Source: Opitutaceae bacterium
GTDB lineage: Bacteria; Verrucomicrobiota; Verrucomicrobiia; Opitutales; Opitutaceae
Assembly: GCA_003164715.1 (NCBI GenBank)
Contig: PLTZ01000035.1
Span: 1 to 64,000 of the forward strand
Direction of reading: 5' to 3'
DNA: 64,000 nucleotides
Below, piece by piece: positions 57,440-60,385 of the stretch. The first letter of the stretch is position 1, and each line of letters opens with the position of its first letter. The position numbers and the translations under genes are program-made. The notes beneath the pieces are model-generated. The model did not search any database. It saw only the letters and a list, made by a program, of their open reading frames with translations, and was not told the origin of the DNA.

Positions 57440-58564
57440 ATGGGCCGGTGGATTCCGGTCGCGGTCGCCACCCTTTTCGTCATCGCCATGGTGGCCCTGC
57501 GTTGGGACGCCCGCACGGGCTTCACCTCACTCCTCGCGTTCGGCGGCCCCAAGTTCGAGCAACGCCTCCCGGTGCTGCGGTCCCTTCCGATCGCGGAGGA
57601 CAAGGCCACGGGCTACGACGGGCAATTCGGGGCGCAGCTGGCCGTCGCCCCCGACCCGAGGACTCCGGAACTGCAGGCGGCGCTCGACAACCCCGCCTAT
57701 CGGGCCCGGCGGATCGCGCTCGCCTGGACCGCCCACCTGATCGGCGGCGGCAATCCGTGGGCGGTCCTGCAGGTCTACGCGCTCCAGAACCTCGCCGTCT
57801 GGCTCGGGCTGGCCTGGCTCATGTGGCGGGAGCTCAGGCCCGTGCCGGACGCGCGCGCCGCGGCGATATGGGCCTCCTGCTTGCTGACCGTCGGCGCGCT
57901 CGACTGCGTGCGGCTCTCCCTGACCGACCTCCTCGCGGTCTTTCTGCTGGCTCTCGCCGTCAGGGCCCTCGCAACAGGGAGACCCTGGGCGGCCGCCGGT
58001 GCCTTCGCGGTCGCCGGCCTGACGCGTGAAACCTCCCTCCTGGGCGCGGCCGCGCTCTGGCCCCCAGGAAAGCCAAGCGGGAGGGCCCGCCTGCGGGCGG
58101 CCGCCCTATTGGCCTGCTCCCTTGCGCCGCTGCTAGCCTGGACCGTGTGGCTCGCCCTCAACGTTTCCCGCGAAGGAGCGCTCGGCCGGAACAACCTCGA
58201 TTGGCCGGGCTTCGGCCTCGTGCGGCATTGCTCCCTTTGCGTGGTCCATTTGGCCCACGGCGACTTTGACTCCCGCCAAACGCTTGGGCTCATCGGGGCG
58301 CTCGGGCTTGGGTACCAATCCCTTCACCTGCTGCTTCGGCCCAGGTGGTCCGAGGCGTGGTGGCGGATTGGAAGCGGCTTCGCGCTGCTCTTCTGGGTGC
58401 TGGGGGATGACGTGTGGAAGGGATATTGGGCCGCGGCCCGGGCCCTGCTTCCGATGACCTTCGCCTTCAACCTTCTGGCACCCAGTGACCGGAGGTTCTG
58501 GACACGCCTCGCGGTCGCCAACGCCGGCCTCGTTCTTCACGGGATATGGCGCATGCTGCCGTGA
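57440..58564 (+). CDS. Polytopic membrane protein, mannosyltransferase-like
   Basis: A 374-residue protein from the ATG at 57440; in-frame ATGs at 57344 and 57350 would add a Pro-rich leader. About nine hydrophobic segments are seen (for example WIPVAVATLFVIAMVALRW and AAALLACSLAPLLAWTVWL). The first loop contains GYDGQFGAQLAVAPDPRT, LDNPAYRARRIALAW, a pattern resembling GT-C-type glycosyltransferases and related uncharacterised membrane proteins. Function is uncertain. Confidence 0.65.
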   Translation: MGRWIPVAVATLFVIAMVALRWDARTGFTSLLAFGGPKFEQRLPVLRSLPIAEDKATGYDGQFGAQLAVAPDPRTPELQAALDNPAYRARRIALAWTAHLIGGGNPWAVLQVYALQNLAVWLGLAWLMWRELRPVPDARAAAIWASCLLTVGALDCVRLSLTDLLAVFLLALAVRALATGRPWAAAGAFAVAGLTRETSLLGAAALWPPGKPSGRARLRAAALLACSLAPLLAWTVWLALNVSREGALGRNNLDWPGFGLVRHCSLCVVHLAHGDFDSRQTLGLIGALGLGYQSLHLLLRPRWSEAWWRIGSGFALLFWVLGDDVWKGYWAAARALLPMTFAFNLLAPSDRRFWTRLAVANAGLVLHGIWRMLP

Positions 58565-58850
58565 GCTTCTGAGAGAGTGGGAGGCGTCGACGGCCGGCAT
58601 CCTGCCGGAGTCCGCCCAACGGCATCCGGCGACCTTGCTCGACGACAACGGCGACGGGTGGACCGATCTCAACGGCGCGCACGATCTCAACGCCCCGGAT
58701 CCGCGTCCTTGTCACCCTCCAGGCGCTACCCGGAAATCATCACCGAGAGCTTCTTGGCTTCACCGGATGACCCGATGAGGGGTTGGCCGCCTGGCAAGAA
58801 CGCGCCGTCGGACCGGGTTACCCACACACCATTTACCTTATCCTTGGGGG
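58565..58850. other. Intergenic region with a possible calcium-loop gene remnant
   Basis: No intact gene. A plus-strand stretch near 58637-58700 would read LLDDNGDGWTDLNGAHDLN, reminiscent of the DxNGDGxxD loops of secreted Verrucomicrobia proteins. It has no start or stop context of its own. Confidence 0.35.
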
Positions 58851-58982
58851 AGTTAACGGCCGCTCAACGGCGGTGTGGCACAGCCGTCACGAGCCCGTAA
58901 CACCCGCTCAGTATCCGGCGGCAGTCGTGACTGCCGCTCTGCATTTAACGCCAGTGTGACATTGCCGTCACGAACCCGTAAC
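58851..58982 (+). promoter_or_regulatory. PhoB-box-like operator array: two clusters of 11-bp-spaced half-sites
   Basis: Seven-base half-sites recur at exact 11-bp steps. Cluster 1: AGTTAAC (58851), GCTCAAC (58862), GTGTGGC (58873), CCGTCAC (58884), CCGTAAC (58895). Cluster 2: ATTTAAC (58943), GTGTGAC (58954), CCGTCAC (58965), CCGTAAC (58976). The spacing (7 bp + 4 bp) and the CCGTCAC-N4-CCGTAAC core match the layout of the E. coli Pho box (CTGTCAT repeats). The clusters are 81 bp apart and 36 of 49 aligned bases are identical. They precede a phosphate-selective porin gene. Regulation by a PhoB-type regulator is inferred. Confidence 0.75.
58918..58937. promoter_or_regulatory. Perfect palindrome between the two Pho-type clusters
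   Basis: A 9-bp inverted repeat, GCGGCAGTC-GT-GACTGCCGC, lies in the 41-bp gap between the clusters. It could bind a second, dimeric regulator or be a structural element. Confidence 0.5.
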
Positions 58983-58992
58983 AAGCGCCCTT

Positions 58993-58998
58993 TAGGAT
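58993..58998 (+). promoter_or_regulatory. Candidate -10 element of the porin promoter
   Basis: TAGGAT (4 of 6 to TATAAT) begins 10 bp after the last half-site (ends 58982), the distance at which the -10 follows a Pho box in E. coli class II Pho promoters. No separate -35 is expected. The leader would be about 55 nt. Confidence 0.5.
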
Positions 58999-59059
58999 GC
59001 GACCTTCGTACTGACCTGAGTCCACCGTTAACAACACCGTTCTGCAGCCACCTGAAAAC

Positions 59060-60385
59060 ATGACACCCAACAAGCCCACATTGCTAGCGCTCCTCGCAAT
59101 CGCGACAGTCTGCTCTGGAACCGCATTTGCCCAGACTGCAACTCCCCCAGCCGCTCCGACGTCGGACAGCCAGGCGTTGATCAATGTCCTGATTAAGAAA
59201 GGCGTCCTCACCGACGAGGAGGCGAAGGACATCACTGCCGAAGCGGCAAGGAACCAGGCCGCCATGGTCGTCGAAACGGGCAATGACTCGTTCTTGCAGA
59301 AACTGACGCTCTCGGGGCGCCTTCAGGAGCAGTACGTGGGCCTTGGCACCACCATAAACGGCACCGCGGTCGGCCCGGTTTCGACGGAGCATTTTATTCT
59401 TCGCCGCATGCTCGTAGGGGTGAGCGCGCAGTTCACCGACGGCTTCAGCGGGACGGTGGTTTACGACCTTGCGAACGACTCCTTCGACAAGGTTGCCCTG
59501 GAGTGGAAGCATAGCGCCCTCTTCACACTGGACGCGGGATTGCTCAAGGCGCCCTTTGGCTATGAGGAGCAACTCTCGAGCGGCGACCTCAAGGCGATCG
59601 AGCGCTCGGCCCTCACCCGCTACATCGACGAGCCCAACAACGGCCGCCGTATCGGGGCCGCCAGCTATCGCACGGGCCTCTTCGCCAAGGGCTCGCTGGA
59701 TGGGTTCTTTTACAATGTCGCTTTCACAAATCCCGAGCGCAACGAGTACAGCGGCGACTCCACGAACACCGCCGTTCTTGTGAACGGACAGGGCGGCGTC
59801 GGCAGCACCGGCAACTCGGCAACCAACAAGTTCGCCTATTATGGCACGGTGGGCTACGGCGGCTCGCTTGGGCAGGGCCTCTACAAGACCACGTACAAGT
59901 TTGGCTATGAAGCCGGATACGACAACAACCAGGGCGGCCCTGGGGCAACCACGGGCACGGGCAGGAACATCGTCCTTAGCGGCGTCTTTGGCGACGTGAC
60001 CATCGGCAACTTTAACCTCATGGCTGAATGGGAGCAGGCCCAGGATGACCGGGGCGCCAGCGCCACGCAGGACGCCAAGCCCAATGGCTATTGGATCCAG
60101 CCGTCCTACAAGCTTACGCCGAAATGGGAGGTAGTCGTGAACTACAGTTACGTCGACTCCGAATGGCGCGGCATCGCCCTTTCCGACATCATCCGTTCAG
60201 CCCCGAGCGGCGGCACGATGAACACGGCCTCCGCGGGCTACTACGGCCTGAACTATTACATCAAGGGCAACGACGTGAAGCTTCAGTTCGGCTACGTCCA
60301 CGGAGAGTCCAACAACACCCTCAAGGGCGCACCGGCCAAGGCCACGACCGACGGCGCCCGGAGCCAGGTGCAGTTCCAGTTCTGA
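59060..60385 (+). CDS. Phosphate-selective porin, OprO/OprP family
   Basis: A 441-residue outer-membrane protein with a signal peptide (MTPNKPTLLALLAIATVCSG to AFAQ). A short coiled-coil-like N-terminal region (ALINVLIKKGVLTDEEAKDI) precedes the barrel. Porin_O_P features are HFILRRMLVGVSAQFTDGFS, DAGLLKAPFGYEEQLSSGD, NNGRRIGAASYRTGLF, WIQPSYKLTPKWEVVVNYSY and a final strand ending VQFQF. The family forms anion/phosphate channels; in pseudomonads OprP is induced by phosphate starvation. A Pho-box-like array lies just upstream and a strong terminator just downstream, so it is a single-gene unit. Confidence 0.9.
   Translation: MTPNKPTLLALLAIATVCSGTAFAQTATPPAAPTSDSQALINVLIKKGVLTDEEAKDITAEAARNQAAMVVETGNDSFLQKLTLSGRLQEQYVGLGTTINGTAVGPVSTEHFILRRMLVGVSAQFTDGFSGTVVYDLANDSFDKVALEWKHSALFTLDAGLLKAPFGYEEQLSSGDLKAIERSALTRYIDEPNNGRRIGAASYRTGLFAKGSLDGFFYNVAFTNPERNEYSGDSTNTAVLVNGQGGVGSTGNSATNKFAYYGTVGYGGSLGQGLYKTTYKFGYEAGYDNNQGGPGATTGTGRNIVLSGVFGDVTIGNFNLMAEWEQAQDDRGASATQDAKPNGYWIQPSYKLTPKWEVVVNYSYVDSEWRGIALSDIIRSAPSGGTMNTASAGYYGLNYYIKGNDVKLQFGYVHGESNNTLKGAPAKATTDGARSQVQFQF

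Follow-up and report, generated by a model that had tools for sequence, protein, structure and literature searches.

Phosphate-starvation promoters of E. coli carry a Pho box made of two or more 11-bp direct repeats, each with seven conserved and four loose bases, and the effector domains of PhoB bind these 11-nt units head to tail (PMC4415409) at a site that overlaps the -35 region (PMC3348028). More than two direct repeat units per promoter region occur in the complex PhoP operators of Streptomyces and in the multiple Pho boxes of E. coli ugp (PMC4415409), and the cyanobacterial regulator SphR has sites in which three 11-bp repeats stand in tandem ahead of the phosphate transport genes sphX-pst (PMC1906773). 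The preliminary description of the locus studied here, which read it as a nine-half-site PhoB-like operator array, called Pho boxes with so many half-sites uncommon. This was overstated: since multi-unit Pho operators are known from Streptomyces, E. coli ugp and cyanobacteria, half-site number alone is not new. In the literature searched, 'Pho box' appears together with 'Verrucomicrobi' only regarding plcP gene clusters in marine bacteria, and a Verrucomicrobiota Pho box is apparently undescribed there, which does not prove its absence from print.

We analyzed a 64,000-nucleotide stretch (the window) of an Opitutaceae MAG (Verrucomicrobiota; 3.79 Mb, 92 contigs). With the PhoB promoters of E. 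coli, the locus has in common the 11-bp direct repeats, the 7-bp half-sites and the overlap with the -35 zone (PMC4415409), as well as a matching PhoB recognition helix and pst and porin genes as targets. By contrast, the E. coli half-site reads CTGTCAT and that of Opitutaceae YCGTMAC, which is richer in G+C, and the Opitutaceae module has three to four ordered half-sites with position-specific wording and is doubled in this genome. The Streptomyces operators and the SphR sites likewise have multiple units, but the former differ in consensus (GTTCACC in S. coelicolor) and have a regulator from another phylum, whereas the latter have a CTTAACCT-like consensus with 8+3 spacing. The comparison gives good support to the view that this is an element of an ordinary, known kind in a little-studied phylum, and that its unusual point is the doubling.

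Two modules upstream of a porin gene

The features of the locus are as follows.

58851-58901, plus strand: distal PhoB-type module (C1) with 11-bp spacing, 23.0 bits with a matrix from other genomes; half-sites AGTTAAC (58851), GCTCAAC (58862), GTGTGGC (58873), CCGTCAC (58884) and CCGTAAC (58895-58901)
58912-58917, plus strand: weak -10-like TATCCG, 10 bp past C1, the spacing of the C2 -10
58918-58937, no strand: perfect inverted repeat with 9-bp arms, GCGGCAGTC-GT-GACTGCCGC, between the modules and just past TATCCG
58943-58982, plus strand: proximal PhoB-type module (C2), core 27.4 bits, exact match to the family pattern; half-sites ATTTAAC (58943), GTGTGAC (58954), CCGTCAC (58965) and CCGTAAC (58976-58982)
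58993-58998, plus strand: putative porin-promoter -10, TAGGAT, 10 bp past C2
59060-60385, plus strand: Porin_O_P family outer-membrane porin, the presumed target (PF07396, E 1.3e-17)

The half-site positions, the spacing and the TAGGAT hexamer starting at 58993, 10 bp beyond the last half-site, were reproduced letter for letter from the preliminary description. The array has the layout of a Pho box, with at least two direct repeats of a 7-bp half-site and a 4-bp spacer at an 11-bp period, standing at a fixed distance of 10 bp from a -10 and replacing the -35; position 2 (A) and position 6 (T) of this hexamer are conserved in relatives. The count of nine half-sites needs qualification. Five and four half-sites are indeed present, but AGTTAAC and GCTCAAC of C1 are weak, which leaves about seven good ones. 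Moreover, the step is exactly 11 bp within each cluster but the cluster-to-cluster offset is 81 bp; 11 does not divide 81 evenly, so the register is broken and C1 and C2 are two modules rather than one continuous array.

We scored the modules with a matrix built solely from porin promoters of other genomes. Against a peak of 16.4 bits in a random 7.6-Mb sequence, C2 reached 27.4 bits, C1 23.0 bits and a site before pstS (see below) 29.3 bits. Besides the two clusters, nothing in the window attains 15 bits with this matrix, and none of the non-porin, non-pst stretches checked does so.

The downstream gene had been described as an OprO/P phosphate-selective porin. Its product matches the PF07396 profile with 64.5 bits (curated cut-off 20.9) and is the sole PF07396 match in the genome, and its closest named relatives by sequence come from uncultured Opitutaceae MAGs. 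OprP and OprO are the phosphate porins of Pseudomonas. The window porin has the Pfam family and a phosphate-linked promoter in common with them but, in contrast to them, matched no solved structure in a phmmer search. We thus assign it at the level of the Porin_O_P family, which stands; the phosphate selectivity is not borne out by phmmer against solved structures and is presumed, the adjacency of porin and pstS in five relatives (see below) bearing on it indirectly.

The pst-phoBR locus and conservation across the family

Contig C17 of the same genome carries pstS-pstC-pstA-pstB-phoU-phoB-phoR in a single run. The encoded PhoB shows 44% identity to E. coli PhoB and retains the recognition-helix stretch RTVDxHxRRLR; its score with TIGR02154 (251.9 bits) lies below the NCBIfam equivalog cut-off of 296.2. 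About 105 bp upstream of pstS stand CTTTAAC, GTGTCAC, GCGTCAC and TCGTAAC in exact 11-bp steps, followed after 10 bp by TAATCT, the same -10 spacing as at the porin promoter. When the genome was searched with up to three mismatches, only the pstS site and the porin sites of the window appeared at zero or one mismatch, and no third clear phosphate promoter emerged. The strict regulon is small, and the sequence recurs before one further phosphate operon only, that of pstS. Two checks named in the preliminary description, a PhoB homologue and further sites before phosphate genes, thus gave positive answers, with phoB lying beside the pst genes.

We gathered porin homologues from 95 related genomes. 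The module is present upstream of 20 of the 24 family porin homologues, and no detectable module was found at the other four; leave-one-out scores are 21-34 bits, with the mild circularity that the first matrix for picking the relatives' modules was trained on the sites of this genome, which leave-one-out removes only partly. The family porin module approximates [C/G]TTTNRC N4 TYGTMAC N4 CCGYCAY N4 TCGTAAC AATC N6 followed by a hexamer, in which the A at position 2 and the T at position 6 are conserved in 21 related porin promoters. One module of three to four half-sites is the family norm.

The porin-derived matrix also detects the module before pstS in relatives whose pstS lies apart from the porin, at loci outside its training. 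Among genomes with this arrangement and a clear upstream module, the module precedes pstS in 8 of 8 (seven others and this one, in which porin and pstS each have their own); one further genome (G001) has a pstS without it. In five genomes (G009, G011, G012, G028 and G035) the porin gene is followed on its own strand by pstS at a distance of 20-60 bp and has the module ahead of it, so that porin and Pst look like one uptake operon. A scan of 43 genomes with a strict pattern, one mismatch allowed, returned 28 sites and none for the reversed-pattern control. Nineteen of these stand before a Porin_O_P porin homologue or pstS, and others before porins of the Porin_5 type or the like, a PstS-family protein (TIGR02136 above cut-off) and a glycosyltransferase; two stand before dnaA. 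The search for the 11-bp array before phosphate genes, also proposed in the preliminary description, thus revealed modules conserved upstream of orthologous genes, both porin and pst, across the family.

Because phoB lies beside pst, the module precedes pstS and it is conserved before porin and pst genes, the proposal of PhoB control is supported. We predict with high confidence that the array is a PhoB operator (Pho box) in a phosphate-starvation promoter, and we infer PhoB binding, the phosphate response, the selectivity of the porin and any part played by C1. Under phosphate scarcity, PhoR would phosphorylate PhoB; the genes for the two close the pst operon. On C2, which would stand in for the -35, PhoB monomers would then line up head to tail along the 11-bp direct repeats and recruit RNA polymerase to TAGGAT. 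The porin, once switched on, would admit phosphate to the periplasm and so supply PstS. C1 would most likely add PhoB dimers upstream, raising or sharpening induction, or act as a weak second promoter.

As a separate observation, PstS of this genome (MLPIKSKWIALLG..., L029:8298-8370) has nearly the same signal-peptide start as the porin of a relative, G006 (MLPIKSKWLALLS..., L072:7400-7500), a likeness that an exchange of promoter and leader between porin and pstS genes would produce.

Origin of the doubling and alternative readings

Among the porin promoters examined, two same-strand modules occur in this genome only. The reported identity of 36 of 49 bases between C1 and C2 was reproduced, and each module aligns best with the other (34 and 31 for the runners-up). 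The claim of a duplicated operator module stands only in part, as 14 of 276 module pairs are equally alike and the spacer-base identity of C1 and C2 (0.50; module-pair mean 0.41) is equaled by many pairs. That their spacers are no more alike than those of many module pairs weakens the duplication claim, and most of the likeness is of the sort expected between any two binding sites of a single protein. Local duplication is plausible but not proven.

If it did occur, C1 might be a decaying, functionless copy. The mutual likeness of the modules, the degenerate GTGTGGC and weak outer half-sites of C1, and the lack of a second same-strand module at any other examined porin promoter would fit such decay, but C1 has kept its CCGTCAC-N4-CCGTAAC core perfect and precisely spaced, and its score exceeds the random maximum; we consider this reading unlikely, though a serious contender. 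Alternatively, C1 could be a promoter in its own right (P1) and not a PhoB site assisting the C2 promoter (P2), as TATCCG follows it at the same 10-bp distance as the -10 of C2. This hexamer lacks the conserved T at position 6, however, and its weakness, together with that of the fourth half-site of C1, is evident when these columns are included in the score, which becomes 20.6 bits for C1 versus 42.1 bits for C2. An independent promoter at C1 is thus doubtful.

It is far less probable that a response regulator of the OmpR family other than PhoB binds the array. The genome encodes four further full-length PhoB-like regulators, and 7-bp half-sites with 4-bp spacers are general in this family, as for PhoP of M. 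tuberculosis (PMC4832192); these other regulators, along with the PhoB score below the equivalog cut-off, were counted against PhoB. Yet the array marks pst and porin promoters family-wide and phoB sits inside the pst cluster, which favors PhoB. Finally, the half-site consensus is short, but a chance run of similar words is ruled out, at a negligible residual probability, by the conservation, by independent matrix scores far exceeding those of a random genome and by the 28 pattern sites versus none in the control.

The dnaA region, other elements and implications

An array of three 11-bp-spaced half-sites of the type CCGTCAC N4 GCGTAAC N4 CYGTAAC lies approximately 450-500 bp upstream of dnaA in this genome (L161, G000:C53, minus strand) and in relatives (L152, L153, L155, L156, L157, L159, L160, L163, L164 and L169). 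Of 23 relatives, 11 have a core score of 15 or more; several of the scores are near the random maximum, and the genus members are not independent. The array marks the left border of a stretch that contains the DnaA-box-like words TGTGAATAA/TGTGAACAA, and no -10 was found at the position it has in porin and pst promoters. The origin or dnaA may be a target of PhoB or of a different regulator in the OmpR family. It is a speculative and improbable extension that the PhoB regulon reaches this dnaA/oriC-like edge, such that starvation would act directly on replication initiation, with the doubled porin module working as a graded, two-stage switch.

In one relative (L129:322-1461, G026:C131), the gene downstream of a Pho-like module encodes a GT4 glycosyltransferase; its highest-scoring NCBIfam models are those of glycolipid synthases, none of them reaching the cut-off, and phosphate-controlled lipid remodeling is possible.

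Several other elements were inspected. The inverted repeat at 58918-58937 is one of 11 such repeats in the window; it was rejected as a shared operator, with no further genome copies above chance, and as an RNA hairpin (z-score -0.44). In a search for RNA elements across 58500-59200, nothing beyond narK was matched, and that below threshold (E 0.95). An open frame at 58565-58790, lying between the array and the gene upstream of it, encodes LLDDNGDGWTDLNGAHDLNAPDP, which resembles the remnant of a calcium-binding repeat protein. Elsewhere in the genome lies a complete MISL RNA, a large structured RNA (RF03079, 528 bits; L071:3503-4256, G000:C36:17503-18256), which is present in 26 of 57 related genomes. 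Preceding the MISL RNA is a conserved GTTGTGNANAA word similar to a DnaA box, and a Pho-like array also occurs there, confined to several members of the genus. A third Pho site before this RNA in this genome (G000:C36) was rejected: it has three mismatches, such matches are no commoner than in the control, and its words recur in several members of the genus without being conserved across the family.

The analysis provides Verrucomicrobiota with a family-wide Pho box consensus, approximately STTTWRC-N4-KYGTVAC-N4-BCGYCAY-N4-YCGTAAC followed after about 10 bp by a -10, and links the pst system with a porin of the outer membrane. With this consensus, phosphate-responsive genes would become predictable in uncultured soil and freshwater Opitutaceae, and the doubled module offers a natural variant for what extra PhoB sites may do.
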